Below, piece by piece: positions 1 to 10,185 of a stretch of DNA of 64,000 nucleotides. The translations under genes were made by a program, and so were the position numbers. Position 1 is the first letter of the stretch, and each line of letters begins with the position of its first letter. A model generated the notes under the pieces. The model saw only the letters and a list, made by a program, of their open reading frames with translations. It was not told the origin of the DNA and ran no database searches. The DNA comes from Aurantiochytrium sp. KH105 (Eukaryota; Sar; Bigyra; Thraustochytrida; Thraustochytriidae), in contig BGKB01000085.1 in the NCBI GenBank assembly GCA_003116975.1, positions 310,001 through 374,000 of the forward strand. Reading direction: 5' to 3'.

Positions 1-3000
1 CAGTCACATACCGCTGCAGTCGCGATAGACCATGTCGCTCCGCGCAAAAACCAGCCATGGGCCGCAAGACACGCTCGAGGCAATAATGTAAGTGCGGAGC
101 AAGAATGAGGTCATCCAGACCCACTTCCCTTGCACCAGACAGAAAAGGATACCATGTCAGCGTGACAGTCTGCGCTTTCGTGTCTTCGCGGGTATTGTCG
201 GTCGCTTCATTTTCTGCAAGAATCGTTTCGAGCGGTTGCAAAACGTTGAGCAAAGTCGCTAGACATTTAGCGTCAACCTCGTCGCGCTGTGGCTCGACGC
301 CAGAGCCGTCTGGTCTCATCATATAAGCATCCGTTGCCGCCTCAAGCTCCTCGCAAATGCGAAAGACATCCGCATAGCTGGTGCGCCGAGGCAGTTGGTC
401 AAAGTCTGCGCGGTACAGCTCGTGCAAGACGTCGAGAATGGCTTTGTCCCCCACGGTGACCCTTTCGTCGGGACCAGGACCCAATAGCATAGGCACTTGA
501 TCCGGACCAACCCAAGTTGGCGGGTCGGCAGCATCAACCAGCACCGTGCTATGCGGGATGCCCAAAGCGCGCATGACCATTTCCACCTTTTGCGAAGAGG
601 GGCAGTTGCGCACGAGACGATCCCCGCGGTGACCCACGCCAATGCAAAGAAAAGCTCTAGACCCGTTTGCAGGTGGGCGCTCCTTTACTTTACGCTGCTG
701 GCGCAAACGTTTCAGTCGGCTCTGATCTGACCCGAGCACCTCGTCCATATTACCAGCCCCGGCTGCCTTGATGTTGAGTACAATCTTGCCTCGAGCTTCT
801 TCGGGGTTCATGGCCAACATTTCTCGCATTTTCTCGGGACTCGAGAAAATTACAAGGTGAACATGGCGTTCAAGCACGTCGAAAAAGGACCAGGTCGCGA
901 CCGGGAGATCGTGCGTGCGATTTGCGCGCTTGGCCTGCGCCGGAAACTTGCGGTGCAAGTAGCGCATGATATCTCTCGAATTGTGCGTCCACTTCCCTTC
1001 ATAGTAGATTGTGGGCGTGCGTCCGGTCGGCACAGCCTCCGTAAACCACGAGGGCTTGGCGTTCCAGTCAATGTCAATAACTTGATGAGGTATACCGGCG
1101 ACAATGAGGAACATGTATACCATTCGAGAGTACGGGCACATGCGCGCAAGATAGTTTTTGATGCGGATGCAACCATAGCAAAGGTACACTGTGCCTACCA
1201 ATGGATCATCTGGCAGCGTTGTCACGACTGCAGCGTGCGTCGCATCGTTCCGTAAAGTCGTGTCTCGCCCTTGGGGCCGGCCAACTCTTGTGCTGCGGCC
1301 TTGGCTCCGCAAGCCAGATGCGAGCCGGCGCGCCTGGCTCTTGCTCGCCCGGCGCGCCTGGAGCTGATGCAAGTCTTCGACTTCGTCATCCTCGCTGTCT
1401 TCGAGAGCATGCAGCGCTTCCATAAGTCTCTCGTGCGTGACGCCAACGGCCGCTTCAACGCCATCAAACTTGTCGAAATTAGCCCGAATACCCTTGCCTC
1501 CAGGGCGTCGCTCCATCATGTTGCCAAAGAGAATGCCGCCAAGCTCGAGATCCGTGCCTCTGTACTGAGTTGTGCATACCAGCAAGTCGTTGTAAACAGA
1601 GTCATGCCCCGAAAAGCTCACGCTGAGAACGATGTTTGCCATTTCCTCCGGGTCGAGCAGGAATCGTCGGAGAGGCGATTGTTCGTCGATCTTGTGTATA
1701 ATCGTTGCGACTGCAGTGACAATGGGCGGGAACGAGGTCTCGAGCGTGTCATACCCGACAAAGTTCTCGCCTTCCGTCGTTTCGTGAAATCGCAAAAGAT
1801 TAACGGATACGCGGGTTTCGTAGACGAGATTGACGCGTCGATTCCCCACGCGAATGAGCAAGGTCGGCTCGCCATCTCGAGTTGTCACCAATGCCTTTTT
1901 GCTAAAGACAATGTCTGGCTTGGGAATCTGAAACTTGGAAACAACCACGGAGAGGACAATCACATTGAGCATGATGCCGGCAAATTGCTGCACGCATGAG
2001 AGCACATACAGGCCGTACGATCCAGGTAGACAGGGGCCGTATCCGAGAGTCAAGATGTTGCTCGTCGCGAAAACAAAGGCGCTGCCAAACGTTCCTGGAA
2101 TGAAAATATCCTCGCCCGACTCGCACTCGATCTCATCCGAGAGAATCCACGACACGAGCGACCACAAGAGACACATGAGCAAATAGCTCAATGCTGAGAG
2201 GAAAAAGACAAACGCCCAGCTCCAATCAAGGAGCACATAATACCAATTCTTCGCCTCGTACCATTTGGAGGCGCCGGTGCCATGCAGTGCTGATCTCTTC
2301 TTTCGCTTGCCGGACTCAATGTGGTCCGGGAGGTATTTCCGTTGCTTGTAGGAGTGTTTGTGTTTCTTGCGCAGTCGCTCGACGCGGAAGCGCCTCCAAT
2401 CTGCGAGGGACATCCCGATTGCATGCGTATGATTGCGTCGTGGTTGGTCTCGTTGAATTCCTTCGAGGGTGCCGAAATTGACCTCGCTTGCGGATCGCGG
2501 GCAATTTTCTACCGATTCTTCACGGTAAATTCCGTCCTTTTTCTTTTTCCGTCTCCTCATGCTTGTGGTCCGCAAAGGGAGTTCCCCGCCGTCTTCGACA
2601 AGAGCATTGTCTTCTTTGTTCTCCTCTTCGCCTTTGTTGTCGCCATCACCTTCTTCTTCTTCGTCTTCTTCTTCTTCTCGTTCTTCTGTTTCTTCGTTTC
2701 CATCGTCGTCGACGTCGTCGTCATTGCCGTTGTTGTCGTTGTTGTCGTTGTTGCGTGTTCTCTTGTGTTGGTCATGACGATGATGATGACTATGATGATG
2801 ATGAGAAGGAGAAGGGGTATTGCTGTCTTCAAGATTTACGTCTTCTGGAGACAAGATGCACGTTTGCATAGCCACCATGGCGTCGCGGCTGTCGTGGCGT
2901 GTTGACCTCCGCTCTCCGCGCTCCACGTCCTCTTCGCCCGGGTCATGGACCAGAGTGCTTTCGCTGCCGAGCAAGTGGTCTCGACCACTACCGGCACGGC

Positions 3001-3109
3001 CGGTACGGGCGAAGGATGCACCATGCTCGGCGTCACTGCCGCCATCGTAGACGCCCTTCCGGCTGCGCGCGGCCTCCTCGTCGCGCGCGCTCGAGCTGCT
3101 TGCTCCCAT
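1..3109 (-). CDS. Inward-rectifier (Kir-type) K+ channel fused to two GST/CLIC-like domains, 3' end cut by window edge
   Basis: Starts at ATG 3109 (CCACCATGG context) and stays open for 1036 codons to the window edge, so the C-terminus is missing. MGASSS at the N-terminus fits an N-myristoylation signal. Residues 100-170 are a His- then Asp/Glu-rich linker. TM1 is about 292-320, the selectivity filter TLGYG is 354-358 and TM2 about 365-388. The Kir cytoplasmic immunoglobulin-like domain follows (about 397-530), with IVFSKKALVTTRDG and LLIRVGNRRVNL, both typical of Kir channels. After a charged linker come two thioredoxin-fold modules of GST N-terminal type: 645-725 with CPYS (Cys658), and 815-895 with CPSSQKV (Cys836). 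A helical GST-C-like tail (GLDDLILAPHLHYCLE) follows. CPxS is the CLIC/DHAR/omega-GST active-site pattern. Expected role: a membrane K+ channel, possibly gated by redox state or glutathione; the channel call is firm, the redox role is inference. Confidence 0.9.
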   Translation of the reverse strand, partial: MGASSSSARDEEAARSRKGVYDGGSDAEHGASFARTGRAGSGRDHLLGSESTLVHDPGEEDVERGERRSTRHDSRDAMVAMQTCILSPEDVNLEDSNTPSPSHHHHSHHHRHDQHKRTRNNDNNDNNGNDDDVDDDGNEETEEREEEEDEEEEGDGDNKGEEENKEDNALVEDGGELPLRTTSMRRRKKKKDGIYREESVENCPRSASEVNFGTLEGIQRDQPRRNHTHAIGMSLADWRRFRVERLRKKHKHSYKQRKYLPDHIESGKRKKRSALHGTGASKWYEAKNWYYVLLDWSWAFVFFLSALSYLLMCLLWSLVSWILSDEIECESGEDIFIPGTFGSAFVFATSNILTLGYGPCLPGSYGLYVLSCVQQFAGIMLNVIVLSVVVSKFQIPKPDIVFSKKALVTTRDGEPTLLIRVGNRRVNLVYETRVSVNLLRFHETTEGENFVGYDTLETSFPPIVTAVATIIHKIDEQSPLRRFLLDPEEMANIVLSVSFSGHDSVYNDLLVCTTQYRGTDLELGGILFGNMMERRPGGKGIRANFDKFDGVEAAVGVTHERLMEALHALEDSEDDEVEDLHQLQARRASKSQARRLASGLRSQGRSTRVGRPQGRDTTLRNDATHAAVVTTLPDDPLVGTVYLCYGCIRIKNYLARMCPYSRMVYMFLIVAGIPHQVIDIDWNAKPSWFTEAVPTGRTPTIYYEGKWTHNSRDIMRYLHRKFPAQAKRANRTHDLPVATWSFFDVLERHVHLVIFSSPEKMREMLAMNPEEARGKIVLNIKAAGAGNMDEVLGSDQSRLKRLRQQRKVKERPPANGSRAFLCIGVGHRGDRLVRNCPSSQKVEMVMRALGIPHSTVLVDAADPPTWVGPDQVPMLLGPGPDERVTVGDKAILDVLHELYRADFDQLPRRTSYADVFRICEELEAATDAYMMRPDGSGVEPQRDEVDAKCLATLLNVLQPLETILAENEATDNTREDTKAQTVTLTWYPFLSGAREVGLDDLILAPHLHYCLERVLRPMAGFCAERHGLSRLQRYVT

Positions 3110-3407: not shown

Positions 3408-6400
3408 TCAGATACTTTCTTCGAGCTGCTTGACGAGCCGTAGCATAATGTTCTCGTTGTCGTATTTCCAGTAGGGAAGCTCGATATTTCGCCGAATGCA
3501 AATTGTGGCAAAGGCCTCGGGCGTGATGATGTCGTCGTCGTCGTCGTCCTCATGATCGTTGACTTCGATCCAAAGATCCATCACCTGCGTCTCGTCGAGA
3601 GGCGGCTGCGGCTGTGCGGTGCGGAGGAGTCCTTGAAACTCCTCAAAGGACAAGACCCCATCGCCGTTGACATCAAACGTACGAAAGAGCTGGATCATCA
3701 TTGTGCGATCAAGCTCGACCTTACTGAGAAAGACTTGTGCTACCTTGCCAAGAAAATCGTCACACTTGACGACCTTGATGTCACTGGTAGTAGACTTGTC
3801 CACTTCAGATTCGGGTACGCTGTTTGTTTCAACCCACTTGATAAGGCGCTGTCGGAAAGCGCTTGGCATTGGCCATGACCGCGTACTAGAGTCCTCGTCA
3901 GGATCCTCCTCTGCCCCACTTCGATTCACGTCTCCGTCCACAAGCTTAAAGATTGATCGCGCGGCGCGCAACGCGTGAGTGCTCTGTACCACAGTCTGCT
4001 CCGGACCATGCTCTAGAGTCTTGGCAATACTTTCGATGCGAGGGAAGATGACCGAAATCACGGCCATGATCACGTCGCACAACGTCTGTGAGTAGTGCTC
4101 GGGGTCCACAACGCCGACGAGCATACCAAAGAGGCGAACTCGGGGCGAATTCTCGCAATCTTCGCGAATGGCCTGCACGACGCCATACAAATACTCTTCA
4201 GCAAGCTTTTTCAGTCCGTATTTTTGCGTGAAAAAGTGCAAAATCGTCTTGGCCAAGGAGTGAGGCTTGCGGCCTGCCTCGCGTCGCATCTTGTCGCTCT
4301 GCACCTTTTTCTGGTAGACTTCACCAATGATGACGTCTTGAAGTTGCGAGGGCTCGATCTTGCGCGCACGCCTGTGCTTGGGTGGCCTGTGCAAATACTT
4401 TTCCCAAGGGAGAGCCTCATTGAGAAGAGGAGTAATGTACTTTGCATGGATTCGGCGCAGGGTAACCATCATGGCCAGCTCGCCACCTTCGCGCAAGAGA
4501 GACTTGTTACGAATGTCAACCGTGTTAAAGACGGTGTCGAGCTTTTTCATCTTTTTCGGCTTGCGTTTATCCTTTTTGTTCGTCTGCGTGCCCCCGCTGC
4601 TTGGTCGTGAAACCAGTTCGCTGTCATCGTATTCGTCTTCCTTGTCAGTGCAATTTTCATCGTCCACTTTCTCGTCCTTGCTGTCACCGTCGCCATCTTG
4701 GTCGTTTGATGTGTGCTGATCATGCGAGTCGTTGTCCGGCTTGGCGCTTCCTGTGTCCTCCAATTCATCAAGTGCAGCATCCGGATAATCAAGATCAAGA
4801 TCAGTGCCGAGCGTGAGCACCGTCGATGGACTCAGCGGAACCTCGTCGGATTCTAACTTGTCTTTGATGGCCTGAATAATGATATGCCGGGCCTCCTCGC
4901 CTGGATGCTCATACATTGGGATGGCGATATCGGTTTGCACGAGCTTGCAATTCTCATCGTCTAAACGACCCTCGAGGCCGTCGTGGTGTCTGTCGAGCGC
5001 CGAAGACGAGTTTGCTCCGTGCACAGACTCTTCGTTGTCATCACCGTCTGGACCGAGTTCCTTCATGGATTCAAAGAGGCGCTTGCTCGTCACCTTCTTG
5101 ATGAGCGTGGGCGTGATCATGTCGAGTTCTTCTGAGTCGAGCATTTGGACAAATTCGAGCACGAGATCGACCCGATCTCGGCTTGAATTGAGCTGCCGGA
5201 GCACCTCGCGGATGAAATTGGTTGCGCGGCCGTCGGCAGCGCTCTCCATGAGTGAAGCTACCAAGCTACGCTGGCCATCCTCATCGAGCGCCATGATCAT
5301 GTGCTTAAGTCGAGCGTGATCCACGGTGGTGAGCCAGTTTGCCATGAACTGTGATTGCTGCAGATCGTCCAGAAGCTTGACGTTGTTCTCGATGTTATCC
5401 TGAATGCAAACGGAAGCGCGCCGTTTTTCGGAGCCGCCAACAACAACAACTTGACCCAAATCATTCCTTTCAGGCTCTGGAACTCCGTTCCCTAGCTGCT
5501 CTTCTGCTCCAGCATCGCTGTCAGCAAGTTCGCCCGCGAGAGCGGCCTGCGCCTCCGTGCGGGATCTGACCGAGCCCCCAGATGCCGAAGACTGCGTCGA
5601 GGACTGTCTTTCTGGTACATCTGCCTCTTGCCCAGTCTCGGACCACTCGCGAGCCAATCGCTGTCTTCGTGGGCCCGTGATTTTTCGCATATGTTCAAGC
5701 AGACGTTCGAGCGCCTCAATGACCCCTGAAGGTTGCAGCTGCGCGATTTCTCTTCGTAAAAGTGCAAAGTCCTCGTCATTTCCTGCTGCGTCATTGTAAG
5801 CTGCGAGAGCGTCAAGAATCTCGTTACAATTACTCAAGGCCGTCTGCAGCTCCTCGATCTGATTGTCGCGTTCCTGAATATTTTTGCGCAGAATGTTATT
5901 CGTATGTTCGAGAGCTGCAACGAAATTGGGATCTGCCTCGCGTTCAAATTTTGCGCGCTCATCGCCATAGCGCTCAAGAAGAAGGTAAAGAATACGGTGC
6001 TCGGTACGCCATAGCCGCAACAGCTTTGAGCCGCGCTTGAGGCATGTTTCCGTCACTTGACGGGGCATCCCGTCTACCGTTGCGGCCATTTGAGCAAGGC
6101 TCGAAGTTCCAGGACGTGGACCGCTCGAGAGAACCGAGCCGCTGGCTTCAAGCAGAGACTCACCGTCTGCCAAGACGGAAGCCTCGAAATCCCCTCGAGA
6201 ACCCGTCATGTACCGTTGCAAGAACGCCAAGTCCTCACGCAAAAATCGTAGACAGGCATCGAACTCTGTCCCGCAAACCTCGATGCACTCTTTCCCGATG
6301 CGGACAGGATCGCTTGAGTTTTCGGCCAAGTCACGCATCCATGTCTCCGCCATGGATTCAGGCATTGATGTTCCGGTGGACACTGTGGAATGGCCTTGCA

Positions 6401-7025
6401 ATACCTCGGCGCTCCCTTGCGCAAGGCTCCCGAGAAGGCCCATCGTATCTTCTCGCATTTCGAGAAGTCCGCCATTGTCGCTCATTGACTCGGACAGGCC
6501 GTACGTCATTTGGCCGAACGAAGGAGAAGATCGCGAGGGTAGTGGATCGAGGATTGACGGAGGCCGCCGTCGTCGCGGTCGTAGTTTCTTGCGGTAGGCC
6601 TTTTCCAGTCGGGAGTCAATGTATGAGACGCGCTCGAGTGCATCGTCGTCAATTGAGGTGGTGTTTACGCTGGAATCCGCAAGGAAGATGAGACCCGATG
6701 AAGATGTCTCGCCTTGATTCATGGGTAGACTTGCTAGTTTCTCCTCCCGGTCTTCAAGTTCTTCGTATTCTTGGCGCACCGAACGCCGCAAGAGCTCGGC
6801 GTTGCTTGCGGGCAGGTCCAGAGCACGCTGGTGTCCTCGCTTGACAGGACTCAGGCTTCTCGTGAGCCTTTGTCCGTGTCCATGCCTTCGTGATCTTGAT
6901 GGACTCGGCGAAGACCTTGCAAGAATCGCTTGTTTTTCGTCTTCGTCTTCGTCAAACTCGCTGTCGAAAACACGGCATGCATTGTGCGCCGTGGCTGCCG
7001 CGACGTCTTTATTGTCGTCGTCCAT
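3408..7025 (-). CDS. Large EF-hand, coiled-coil protein of unknown function (1205 aa)
   Basis: The frame extends upstream to a TTG, but the first ATG in good context (GTCATGG) is at 7025, giving MDDDNKDV. The N-terminal 250 residues are Ser/Arg- and acid-rich and probably disordered. A coiled-coil stretch (LEHTNNILRKNIQERDNQIE) lies in the first half. An acidic low-complexity linker (DGDGDSKDEKVDDENCTDKE) precedes a conserved-looking helical region containing SLAKTILHFFTQKYGLKKLA. One canonical EF-hand loop, DVNGDGVLSFEE, is at about 1118-1129, followed by a degenerate second hand with a poly-Asp run. I do not recognise the family. A Ca2+-responsive scaffold is plausible and a flagellar location is possible, but the sequence does not prove either. 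It lies 298 bp upstream of the Kir gene on the same strand. Confidence 0.8.
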   Translation of the reverse strand: MDDDNKDVAAATAHNACRVFDSEFDEDEDEKQAILARSSPSPSRSRRHGHGQRLTRSLSPVKRGHQRALDLPASNAELLRRSVRQEYEELEDREEKLASLPMNQGETSSSGLIFLADSSVNTTSIDDDALERVSYIDSRLEKAYRKKLRPRRRRPPSILDPLPSRSSPSFGQMTYGLSESMSDNGGLLEMREDTMGLLGSLAQGSAEVLQGHSTVSTGTSMPESMAETWMRDLAENSSDPVRIGKECIEVCGTEFDACLRFLREDLAFLQRYMTGSRGDFEASVLADGESLLEASGSVLSSGPRPGTSSLAQMAATVDGMPRQVTETCLKRGSKLLRLWRTEHRILYLLLERYGDERAKFEREADPNFVAALEHTNNILRKNIQERDNQIEELQTALSNCNEILDALAAYNDAAGNDEDFALLRREIAQLQPSGVIEALERLLEHMRKITGPRRQRLAREWSETGQEADVPERQSSTQSSASGGSVRSRTEAQAALAGELADSDAGAEEQLGNGVPEPERNDLGQVVVVGGSEKRRASVCIQDNIENNVKLLDDLQQSQFMANWLTTVDHARLKHMIMALDEDGQRSLVASLMESAADGRATNFIREVLRQLNSSRDRVDLVLEFVQMLDSEELDMITPTLIKKVTSKRLFESMKELGPDGDDNEESVHGANSSSALDRHHDGLEGRLDDENCKLVQTDIAIPMYEHPGEEARHIIIQAIKDKLESDEVPLSPSTVLTLGTDLDLDYPDAALDELEDTGSAKPDNDSHDQHTSNDQDGDGDSKDEKVDDENCTDKEDEYDDSELVSRPSSGGTQTNKKDKRKPKKMKKLDTVFNTVDIRNKSLLREGGELAMMVTLRRIHAKYITPLLNEALPWEKYLHRPPKHRRARKIEPSQLQDVIIGEVYQKKVQSDKMRREAGRKPHSLAKTILHFFTQKYGLKKLAEEYLYGVVQAIREDCENSPRVRLFGMLVGVVDPEHYSQTLCDVIMAVISVIFPRIESIAKTLEHGPEQTVVQSTHALRAARSIFKLVDGDVNRSGAEEDPDEDSSTRSWPMPSAFRQRLIKWVETNSVPESEVDKSTTSDIKVVKCDDFLGKVAQVFLSKVELDRTMMIQLFRTFDVNGDGVLSFEEFQGLLRTAQPQPPLDETQVMDLWIEVNDHEDDDDDDIITPEAFATICIRRNIELPYWKYDNENIMLRLVKQLEESI

Positions 7026-7851
7026 GACGGCTTGCTGCACAATATCTCTCCGTACGCCAAAGCTGACTGGCTTGGCAGCTCGCCTGGGTGGTGACAAGCG
7101 AACACATGGTATGCACGTGCACGTGCTGCAAGGCGCAACATTGAACAATCAAGATCGATCGGGGAAACTCGTTGCTGTAACGCATATATCGGGAAAATTC
7201 CGTTGACACACGCACATTCGCCTGCCACTCTGCAAAAGGCGCAAAAGTACTTGTCGACGACAAAAGTATGACTGAACGTGCACACCGCACCCATCGTGAA
7301 CAACGTCTGTTCTGGTGTTGAGATAGGCCTAGAGAAGATGCTTTTAAAATTCTTGCCATGAACCCGGGCCGCCGGTCGCATCAACTTTCCTTCTTCTTCT
7401 TCTTCTTCTTCTTCTTCTTCACCCGCGTTAGATACTACGATACACTCCTTACCGCACATACATCGCATCTCCAAAAACTGAGCTTGATGCGAGATCGCCA
7501 ATCGCCGACTGAGCTCTCCACCAGCGCAACAACAACGACCAAGAAGTCAAAACTCGAAAGAGCATCGCAACTCAGTCATGACTCCCGTTCGAGAAAAGAG
7601 ACCTATCAAGAGGCAGAAGCGACCTTAAAAACACACAAGTTTCTTCAGCTCTCCAGCTCCTCTCTCGAGGGCGGCCAAACCCGCGAGGCGCCCGCGCGGC
7701 GCTCGGGGCGCACGCGCGTCGCTCGGGGCGGCACAGCAGGGCCTGGGCAGCCGCCGCAAAAGGAGCCCGCGGGGAAGGTGTCCCCGCCATCGCCCGCCAG
7801 ACTCTTCTCCACGTGTAGACCTCGAAGGCGAGGCGCGCGAAGAGCACGACG
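7026..7851. promoter_or_regulatory. Shared divergent upstream region
   Basis: This 826-bp spacer separates the divergent EF-hand and EDEM genes and must hold both promoters. It carries a (TTC)n tract at about 7389-7420. I see no further gene; short open frames here start at non-ATG codons or have no recognisable content. Confidence 0.5.
7389..7420. repeat. (TTC)n microsatellite
   Basis: About ten uninterrupted TTC triplets in the divergent promoter region; GAA on the minus strand. Confidence 0.9.
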
Positions 7852-10185
7852 ATGGTGTTTCGGCGCGTGCCGTGGCGCGGCGCGGCGACGCTGGCAGCCT
7901 TGGCCCTGGCCTGCGCGACGCGCTTAGGCCTCGGACTGGACTTGGAGGAGGCCACGCACGATGACCTTGGCTCCATCGGGTTTGCGCTGCGCGAACAGAC
8001 CGGACGGATGCTCGACCATGCCTTTGGAAATTACATGGACCACGCGTACCCGTGGGACGAACTCAAGCCTCTGAGCTGCAGCGGAAGGCGATGGGATCGC
8101 CGCGAGCGCGGGACGATTGACGACACGCTTGGAGGGTTCTCGCTAACGCTGATTGATGCCCTCGATTCGCTGGCAGTCATGGGGAGGTACGAGGCATTTT
8201 ATGACTCCGTGGACCTCGTCCGTCGAGATGTGAGCTTTGACAGGGACGTGACGGTCTCCGTTTTCGAGACGACCATTCGCGTCCTGGGTGGCCTGCTCTC
8301 TGCGCACTTGCTTCTTGAAAATGGAACGGTTCCGCAAGCTCCCCAGGACTGGGCGTACAAGGGCGAGCTTTTGGACCTTGCTGTAGACCTTGGTGAACGC
8401 CTCTTGCCAGCGTTTGAGACTGCCACCGGGATCCCGTACCACCGTGTAAACCTTTTGCGCGGCGTGGAGCCACGCGAAACAACTTTTACGTGCACGGCGG
8501 CCGCAGGCACGCTTTTGATGGAGTTCGGGCTGCTCTCTCGCCTCTCTGCAAGACCCGAGTTTGAGGCCAAGGCGCGACGGGCAATGCTTGCGCTGTGGAA
8601 CCGCAAGCACCCCGATACGGGGCTTGTGGGCAATACGATTTGCGTTCGCACGGGGAAATGGCAACACGCCAAAACAGGGAGCGGCCCCGGCGTTGACAGT
8701 TTTTTCGAGTACTTACTCAAGGCTGGCATTCTGCTTGAGGACCCTGCAAGTCCTTTCGTTTCAGACAGCGAGCCGAAGGGCGAAAGTCCTCGTCTTCTTC
8801 AAAATGCCTTTGCGGAAGCCTTGGAGAGCGTCGAAGAGCACCTGGCCTTTGGACCGTGGCATATTGAGGTGGACATGAATGTCGGAAAGACGCAGCCGAT
8901 GCGTTTTGGTGTTTCGGCCCTTCAGGCGTTTTGGCCTGGTTTACTCGCCTCTATTGATAGACTAGAAAGCGCCGAGGAGAGCTTTGACGCTTTTTATGGA
9001 CTATGGCGCGCACATGGGGCCATGCCGGAAGATTTTGACCTGCTGGCGCGGCGAACCTCGCAGTATGGTCATGGGTATTATTTGCGTCCCGAACTGGCCG
9101 AGAGCACGATGATTCTGTTCCAAAAGACAGGTCAGCGCAAATACGTAGAGGCAGCTGCGCGAATTCTCAATGACATTGAGACGCGGTGTCGCGTGCCGTG
9201 CGGGTATTCTTCGCTGCGCGATGTGAGCGCCAAGACAGCTGCGGGAAATCACGAAGATCGCATGGATAGCTACTTTATCGCGGAGACGCTCAAGTACCTG
9301 TACATTGTATTTGACATGGCAGCACGCAACTCGACACGAGTCTCTATGCTAGGTGAGGCGCCGCTCTTCACGACGGAGGGTCACCTCTTGTTTTTGAAAC
9401 AGAACTCCACCGGCTTAGCAGAGTCGATTGTCGACGCAGCACCCACAAAAGCAGCTGTAGACAGAACTGTAGAGACAGGTGTTTCAAGTGCTGCTCATGC
9501 CGGCAGGCCGGAGAATTTACCTCCTCGTGCCGATGTAGTGACAGTTCGTGCGCGCGTGCAAGCGGTGATGACTCCGCATCTGCATGTTCCGGTGGTGGTC
9601 CCACAGGGGTCAAGTGAGGCGCGGACCGCGGCATTTATGTTTTCGCCAGCGTCCTTTGGGCGATCTGTACCACTTGATCTCGACGAACACATGGTGCTGG
9701 TCAAGGCGAATCCTTTGGACGCCTGTGGTCCGCTTCGCAATGCACAAGCGTTAGAGGACGCTGCCAAGCTGGTGTCACACTTGCGGGTTGTGCGCGGTCA
9801 TCATCCTCTAGGGCTTGCCGTGGTGGTGAGTCGTGGAAGCTGCAGCTTTGTGGAGAAAGTTGCTGCAGTCGCAAACGCAACGTCTTCGCCTCTGATCAAC
9901 TTTGTGGTTGTTCTGAACAGCCCTGAGTACGGCGACGAGCTGCACACTATGTCGGACGACGGTTCGGCGCGATTGCAGGGCCCGCGTCTGGCGCAAATGC
10001 GCAGCGTCATGGCGCCTTATGCGCTGGCTCAATACCTGCAAAAGGTAGGTTTTCCCGTCGCCAAGCGACTGCCAGAGGTGGACTCTTTTCACCAGTCCCA
10101 TTACGCGGTGCTCCGCATGCAAGGCGATACCTTTGACGCTCATGGTGGTTCGAGCGGTACAATGCAATCTTCTAGGGCCAGGTGA
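7852..10185 (+). CDS. EDEM-type ER alpha-mannosidase (GH47) with PA domain
   Basis: A 777-aa protein starting at ATG 7852. A hydrophobic N-terminus (residues 8-30) fits a signal peptide for ER entry. The GH47 fold spans about 35-480: GRMLDHAFGNYMDHAYPWDEL, TIDDTLGGFSLTLIDALDSL, SVFETTIRVLGGLLSAH, SFFEYLLKAGIL, MDSYFIAETLKYLY, and LFTTEGHLL, which supplies the conserved Ca2+-binding Thr. A protease-associated domain follows at about 590-720 (RGSCSFVEKVAAVANA), as in EDEM3. Known role of the family: trimming mannose from misfolded glycoproteins and feeding them to ERAD. No KDEL/HDEL signal ends the protein (SSRAR), so retention would need a partner. Length is close to yeast Htm1 (796 aa). A class I mannosidase acting in the Golgi is less likely because of the PA domain. 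Confidence 0.92.
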   Translation: MVFRRVPWRGAATLAALALACATRLGLGLDLEEATHDDLGSIGFALREQTGRMLDHAFGNYMDHAYPWDELKPLSCSGRRWDRRERGTIDDTLGGFSLTLIDALDSLAVMGRYEAFYDSVDLVRRDVSFDRDVTVSVFETTIRVLGGLLSAHLLLENGTVPQAPQDWAYKGELLDLAVDLGERLLPAFETATGIPYHRVNLLRGVEPRETTFTCTAAAGTLLMEFGLLSRLSARPEFEAKARRAMLALWNRKHPDTGLVGNTICVRTGKWQHAKTGSGPGVDSFFEYLLKAGILLEDPASPFVSDSEPKGESPRLLQNAFAEALESVEEHLAFGPWHIEVDMNVGKTQPMRFGVSALQAFWPGLLASIDRLESAEESFDAFYGLWRAHGAMPEDFDLLARRTSQYGHGYYLRPELAESTMILFQKTGQRKYVEAAARILNDIETRCRVPCGYSSLRDVSAKTAAGNHEDRMDSYFIAETLKYLYIVFDMAARNSTRVSMLGEAPLFTTEGHLLFLKQNSTGLAESIVDAAPTKAAVDRTVETGVSSAAHAGRPENLPPRADVVTVRARVQAVMTPHLHVPVVVPQGSSEARTAAFMFSPASFGRSVPLDLDEHMVLVKANPLDACGPLRNAQALEDAAKLVSHLRVVRGHHPLGLAVVVSRGSCSFVEKVAAVANATSSPLINFVVVLNSPEYGDELHTMSDDGSARLQGPRLAQMRSVMAPYALAQYLQKVGFPVAKRLPEVDSFHQSHYAVLRMQGDTFDAHGGSSGTMQSSRAR

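Follow-up and report, generated by a model that had tools for sequence, protein, structure and literature searches.

A Kir-type potassium channel joined in one frame to three tandem glutathione-transferase modules in Aurantiochytrium sp. KH105, with a tentative case for redox gating

Proteins that join an ion channel to an enzyme-type domain are known from TRPM7, TRPM2 and Kv-beta. In protists, adenylyl cyclase/K+ channel fusions have been described, and a 2012 survey of K+ channels of pathogenic protozoa, in whose main text neither "glutathione" nor "GST" occurs, records homologues of Kir channels in Toxoplasma and Cryptosporidium (PMC3283738). K+ channels are also modified by oxidants and then reset by free thiol enzymes (PMC11631806). 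Here we describe a gene of Aurantiochytrium sp. KH105 that encodes a Kir-type channel followed by three tandem modules of the glutathione transferase (GST) type, hereafter the Kir-GST gene. It likewise couples a channel to an enzyme-type domain, whereas the systems above involve other channel classes and other enzymes. The gene lies at the left edge of a stretch of 64,000 nucleotides, hereafter the window (C85:310001-374000, contig BGKB01000085.1), in an assembly of 76 Mb and 367 contigs. No Kir-GST protein was reported by title or abstract opening among the matches listed from the open-licence PMC literature, and the available part of PMC7935092 contains nothing on Kir channels.

Extended into the left flank of the window, the Kir-GST frame encodes 1582 amino acids (C85:308361-313109, minus strand, equivalent to L005:4361-9109 minus). 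An earlier note on this DNA, made from the window only, had described a single uninterrupted minus-strand frame running through the Kir and GST parts, and this is what the extended sequence contains. The longest open run at the locus, within a 9,999-base stretch, is 1607 codons, compared to a maximum of 392 in 200 simulated stretches (first-order Markov, matching composition). Each Kir gene of this assembly has a near-identical partner on another contig, and we read the two sets as two haplotypes. The second Kir-GST copy (C83, L020) has the same frame open over 1575 amino acids, and the stop between the Kir and GST parts that the note had named as evidence against a fusion is absent from both copies. 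The parts of the gene are as follows, with window positions and residues of the full protein.

2..3109, minus strand: Kir-GST gene, codons 1-1036 inside the window; cut by the left edge of the window, the rest running left to C85:308361
2282..3109, minus strand: low-complexity N-terminal region, residues 1-276; differs between the two copies
1928..2269, minus strand: Kir pore unit, residues 281-394; Ion_trans_2 over cut-off, phmmer matches to KirBac3.1 and Kir2
Within the pore unit: slide helix 281-295, transmembrane helix TM1 298-321, pore helix 341-352, transmembrane helix TM2 365-394, from a low-confidence AlphaFold2 model
2036..2050, minus strand: K+ selectivity filter TLGYG, residues 354-358; sequence and alignment
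1451..1912, minus strand: Kir cytoplasmic domain (IRK_C), residues 400-553; Pfam
1574..1576, minus strand: Cys512, in the alignment column of Kir2.1 Cys311
1190..1429, minus strand: channel-to-GST linker, residues 561-640; open in both copies, mostly low model confidence
926..1159, minus strand: module 1 thioredoxin-fold domain, residues 651-728; Pfam and predicted model
1136..1138, minus strand: Cys658 of CPYS, module 1; alignment and model
416..646, minus strand: module 2 thioredoxin-fold domain, residues 822-898; model and module alignment
602..604, minus strand: Cys836 of CPSS, module 2; alignment and model
2..382, minus strand: module 2 helical C-domain, residues 910-1036 within the window, continuing outside
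Outside the window, within C85:308361-310000, minus strand: module 3, about residues 1121-1345, with Cys1144 (CPFS)
Outside the window, within C85:308361-310000, minus strand: lone fourth GST C-domain, about residues 1376-1486
Outside the window, within C85:308361-310000, minus strand: conserved tail, with LFCI at residues 1579-1582

The two copies differ by 94 synonymous and 48 nonsynonymous changes with no internal stop, and all gap columns between them (9/9) fall in the N-terminal region. The ratio of nonsynonymous to synonymous change (dN/dS), obtained by simple counting on this one sequence pair without correction for multiple hits, is 0 in the pore region (0 of 5 differences nonsynonymous in residues 285-399), and 0.08 in the Kir cytoplasmic domain. 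For the three GST stretches it is 0.06, 0.10 and 0.08, and for the fourth C-domain 0.07. It reaches 0.44 in the N-terminus (residues 1-284) and 0.92 in the linker (residues 561-650; 4 synonymous and 11 nonsynonymous differences). The low values in the folded parts therefore indicate that both halves are constrained as protein, and that the linker is not.

Searches of a protein database listed nine distinct proteins, five of which combine a Kir cytoplasmic domain with GST (P0001, P0002, P0004, P0005 and P0006). P0001, 99% identical, is the own entry of the Aurantiochytrium protein with a shorter N-terminus, and the whole architecture is present in P0002, P0004 and P0005 (47%, 42% and 38% identity, respectively). 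The remaining proteins are P0003 (labelled "Auranti...", 904 aa, 55% identity), P0007 and P0008, all with GST only, and P0009, an insect Kir without GST. A search aimed at shorter or dinoflagellate fusions yielded six matches, namely four known members, the free GST P0008 and the insect Kir P0009. Since each protein search scored only about 8,000 candidates, those sharing most words, the number of fusions is a lower bound. Viral contigs scanned with the full alignment gave no relative, nor did genome contigs scanned with the Kir alignment, both scans being seeded with two short peptide patterns that distant relatives may escape; a bacterial or viral origin found no support in these scans. The linker may hold an in-frame intron, but the frame is open and gap-free there in both copies, so that removal of a multiple of three would still leave the fusion standing, and P0002 keeps the same order of segments (first acidic, then rich in Arg and Ser, then LRND). 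The protein starts with MGASSS (window 3092-3109), which we take to fit an N-myristoylation signal; P0002 does not have the same start.

P0006 comes from Amoebophrya sp. A25 (Syndiniales, Alveolata). Its Kir part is 34% identical over 270 columns and features a GYG filter, and its GST N-domain has a CSVS motif, keeps Glu-Ser, and scores 22.8 bits with GST_N_3 (cut-off 22) and 21.7 bits with GST_N_2, below the cut-off of 25. Hidden Markov models (HMMs) of the family modules score 42.0, 11.2 and 39.0 bits on P0006 for modules 1, 2 and 3, respectively. With phmmer, the GST piece of P0006 scores 39.5 bits against module 1 of the Aurantiochytrium protein, 38.6 against module 3 and 12.1 against module 2, compared to 15.2 and 13.1 bits against the free GSTs P0008 and P0007, and no match was listed at E up to 1 among free GSTs of the Aurantiochytrium genome (frames of at least 80 codons, 16 stretches covering 18 of the 39 GST_N_2 matches of the genome; the fused gene itself accounts for four of the 39, and most others are copies of the other haplotype). 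The link of P0006 on the GST side rests on Pfam, the module HMMs and phmmer. The C-terminal end, DLLFCI in Aurantiochytrium (L005:4364-4381, minus strand) and NLCL in Amoebophrya, shows strong conservation, its penultimate residue always being Cys, and may act as a docking motif or offer a substrate thiol. Because the same order of parts occurs in distant relatives, and related Kir and GST parts occur in Amoebophrya, the fusion is, judging from these comparisons, real and probably old. We read this distribution as one ancestral Kir-GST fusion common to the Aurantiochytrium group and the alveolate. Alternatively, the arrangement may have arisen by two fusions, or reached one of the groups by transfer.

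The channel half scores 54.5 bits with IRK_C (cut-off 22.5; 59.7 bits in another scan) and 23.8 bits with Ion_trans_2 (cut-off 22.5), as whole-protein Pfam scores on the full protein. Of the families named in the earlier note, IRK_C, GST_N, GST_C and CLIC-like all pass their cut-offs on the extended protein, whereas the IRK transmembrane model does not (16.1 bits vs 22.7). Two predicted transmembrane (TM) helices and a filter of the TxG[YF]G type were found, and sequence and alignment place TLGYG, Cys658 and Cys836 where the note had them. The nearest solved chain is KirBac3.1 (phmmer E 6.5e-20), followed by Kir5.1, Kir2.2 and Kir2.1, and KirBac3.1 is also the top Foldseek match of the model of the Kir part. 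Judged by IRK_C and by its similarity to solved Kir chains across the pore and cytoplasmic domain, the channel half is a predicted channel of divergent Kir type. It shares two TM helices, the TxGYG filter and the IRK_C domain with Kir and KirBac channels, and differs from them in its IRK score below cut-off and in about 1,000 extra residues bearing the GST modules. Where the three other Kir genes of the genome have the motif QARHSY, the Kir-GST protein reads CTTQY.

In the second half, Pfam gives GST_N_2 at 96.1 bits (cut-off 25) and GST_C_2 at 60.8 bits (cut-off 24.9), both in three stretches and as whole-protein scores, and CLIC-like_N at 40.3 bits (cut-off 23.5) in one stretch, in module 1. 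This listing holds the best stretch per family, and the other GST stretches were placed from the sequence and the predicted model. The two GST-N modules of the earlier note both exist, but the total is three; the module of Cys1144 falls beyond the window edge and was for this reason missed. Thioredoxin folds are predicted not only around Cys658 and Cys836, as the note had anticipated, but also around Cys1144 (model residues 19, 197 and 505, with helix 1 from 20, 198 and 506, respectively). Helical GST C-domains follow modules 2 and 3, and the fourth C-domain stands alone. Modules 1 and 3 are identical at 34 of 77 positions, with a score of 204, whereas none of 300 shuffles scored above 53. The modules resemble one another, and thus probably arose by duplication.

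In sequence comparison with solved structures, the closest matches of module 1 are pyrimidodiazepine synthase, DHAR and GST omega-1, and that of module 3 is DHAR (E 7.4e-13). Of the CLIC/DHAR/omega-class label given previously, the omega/DHAR part therefore holds for modules 1 and 3 by sequence; CLIC-like_N passes in module 1, but CLIC is not the nearest class, and modules 1 and 3 are best described as omega/DHAR-like rather than CLIC-like. Unlike in CLIC proteins, the predicted channel role sits in a separate Kir domain, and unlike in DHAR, omega and lambda GSTs, the modules form a tandem triplet joined to a channel, and two of them, modules 1 and 2, are devoid of Glu-Ser. The nearest predicted folds of the GST part are Leishmania TDR1 (Foldseek rank 1, E 1.1e-11), solved as a trimeric transferase according to its structure title, and plant DHAR. 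Leishmania TDR1 consists of two GST units, so that tandem units occur in both, and has no channel. Foldseek TM-scores over the whole query are low because each long model contains several domains, and only domain-level matches were used.

The active-site residues were compared in the Aurantiochytrium protein, P0002, P0003, P0004 and P0005, with the second haplotype in agreement. The Cys of module 1 is kept in all four proteins that cover it (CPYS, CPYS, CPYS, CPCS), P0003 beginning after the motif, and that of module 2 in 5/5 (CPSS, CPET in P0002, CPSS, CPNS, CPYS). Module 3 keeps its Cys in 5/5 (CPFS once, CPYS four times), together with Pro and Glu-Ser, also in 5/5. Glu-Ser is the motif that grips the gamma-glutamyl end of glutathione. 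With Cys, Pro and Glu-Ser all kept, module 3 is therefore the module most likely to carry out genuine chemistry on glutathione.

Three cysteines of the Kir part, Cys329, Cys360 and Cys512, recur in P0002, P0004 and P0005; Amoebophrya has lost or never had any of them. Cys329 and Cys360 may correspond to Cys122 and Cys154 of Kir2.1, which stand on either side of the pore loop. Cys512 aligns with the column of Kir2.1 Cys311, the Kir2.1 numbering having been confirmed, and the three other Kir genes of the genome have Ala in this column. The C311S change reduces the activity of Kir2.1, modification of Kir1.1 at Cys49 and Cys308 by thiol reagents is accompanied by channel closure, and oxidant inhibition of a vascular KATP channel is reversed by dithiothreitol and glutaredoxin, suggesting S-glutathionylation, the main site there being Kir6.1 Cys176, at a different position from Cys512 (PMC11631806). 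In view of these findings on other Kir channels, we propose that the tethered modules act on Cys512, which we infer to be their likeliest target.

It is tempting to speculate that the glutathione thiol-transferases tethered to this Kir channel gate it, acting most likely on Cys512, a reading to which we give a probability of roughly 0.4. Every subunit would carry three tandem DHAR/omega-like thiol modules on its cytoplasmic C-terminus, and assembly as a tetramer would provide 12 tethered thiol sites. Module 3, with CPxS, a Pro expected to be cis and Glu-Ser, would bind glutathione; modules 3 and 1 would add glutathione to channel cysteines or remove it, and module 2, without Glu-Ser but with its Cys kept, may be a relay or a structural part. 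Oxidation would then shift K+ conductance, and the tethered modules would reset it once glutathione is reduced. Redox gating gains from the alignment of Cys512 with Kir2.1 Cys311, and loses from the destroyed filter of P0002. More tentatively, such channel-enzymes could be ancient and SAR-wide, with 12 thiols per tetramer that would read the glutathione state and set conductance by (de)glutathionylation of a gate cysteine, and with a pseudo-channel redox hub in one lineage. The odds of this wider form are lowered slightly because comparison of the whole-family profile with P0006 returned the Kir part only, and because the module-1 HMM separates poorly (P0006 47.6, compared to P0008 44.8, P0007 34.2 and the free GST L027 of the Aurantiochytrium genome 31.6); the module-3 HMM separates better (44.5 for P0006 vs 26.5 and 17.9).

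Several further observations weigh against gating by tethered modules. With so long and poorly conserved a linker, no fixed geometry between modules and gate is evident; the placing of Cys512 near the cytoplasmic gate is presumed from Kir2.1, on whose literature its gate role rests; Amoebophrya has Ser in this column; and the AlphaFold2 model of the Kir part, used for helix limits only, is of low confidence (mean pLDDT, the predicted local distance difference test, 60.5). Module 2 matches solved GST-fold chains weakly (DHAR best at E 0.0029, CLIC 0.12), its Glu-Ser is absent in all rows, and in module 1, where Pro is present, Glu-Ser is replaced by Asn-Ser, Asn-Thr or Ser-Val in all rows. These losses of Glu-Ser would also fit modules that serve assembly or partner binding without redox chemistry, as GST-like domains do in translation factors and metaxins, as would the lone fourth C-domain, the poorly predicted helices after module 1 and the conserved C-terminus (LFCI, or NLCL in Amoebophrya), which we take to resemble a docking motif. 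Such a scaffold is nevertheless rather doubtful, since it would have no need of the active-site Cys kept in 5/5 proteins in modules 2 and 3, nor of the Pro and Glu-Ser of module 3. P0003, which begins within module 1 and has no Kir part, through either a truncated transcript or a real difference, also speaks against channel gating, and together with the little-constrained linker it could be taken to indicate two neighbouring genes, or an assembly or reading artefact, fused by chance in one frame. However, two contigs share the frame, which has no internal stop in spite of 142 counted differences between them, the same order occurs in three distant relatives and Amoebophrya, and a gene starting where P0003 starts would cut through a folded domain. 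In view of the intact second copy and the full-length relatives we reject this reading, giving it next to no credence.

Another objection to redox gating is P0002, which has TLSSS (residues 287-291) in place of the K+ filter and keeps all GST modules. K+ conduction is thus not required in every relative, and the Kir part of P0002 is, from its filter sequence, probably not a K+ pore; there, either a redox role comes first or the subunit is silent. The lost filter is the chief support for a membrane-tethered reductase, in which the Kir part would mainly be an anchor and tetramer scaffold for glutathione-dependent dehydroascorbate or disulfide reductase modules, conduction being secondary or lost, and the nearness of module 3 to DHAR by sequence and by fold points the same way. 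We consider it unlikely, given that the filter is intact (GYG or GFG) in the Aurantiochytrium protein, P0004, P0005 and Amoebophrya, and that none of the five haplotype differences in residues 285-399 is nonsynonymous. The lost filter of P0002 and the same anatomy would also fit coupling in the reverse direction, in which the Kir part would sense K+ or the state of the membrane and thereby control the activity of the thiol modules, but no sequence feature specifically indicates such control, and we regard it as very improbable.

Other Kir genes of the genome carry additions of a different kind. Those at L025:5199-7748 and L021:2984-6445 (both minus strand, with copies in L026 and L022) have a long insertion in the cytoplasmic domain that features a C2H2 zinc-finger-like motif, CPVCGxTFxTDxHLLRHIRYQQ; the L025 protein alone matches zf-C2H2 in Pfam, below cut-off (19.0 vs 25.2). 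In both copies an ankyrin-repeat frame (L005:674-2701, minus strand) follows downstream, on the strand of the Kir-GST gene. The adjoining frame within the window (3411-7148, minus strand, 1246 aa) has an EF-hand near its end and no further Pfam family listed, and window 7852-10182 on the plus strand encodes a glycosyl hydrolase of family 47 (alpha-mannosidase type) with a weak PA-domain match below cut-off.

In the Kir-GST protein, the presumed modifying enzymes ride on the channel subunit, and they are kept there in distant relatives. The coupling of glutathione to membrane potential could thereby be studied within one polypeptide, for which the broken filter of P0002 represents a natural control separating conduction from a redox role. 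The presence of the fusion across these relatives suggests that the redox state of the cell may act directly on a potassium channel through modules of the same protein.

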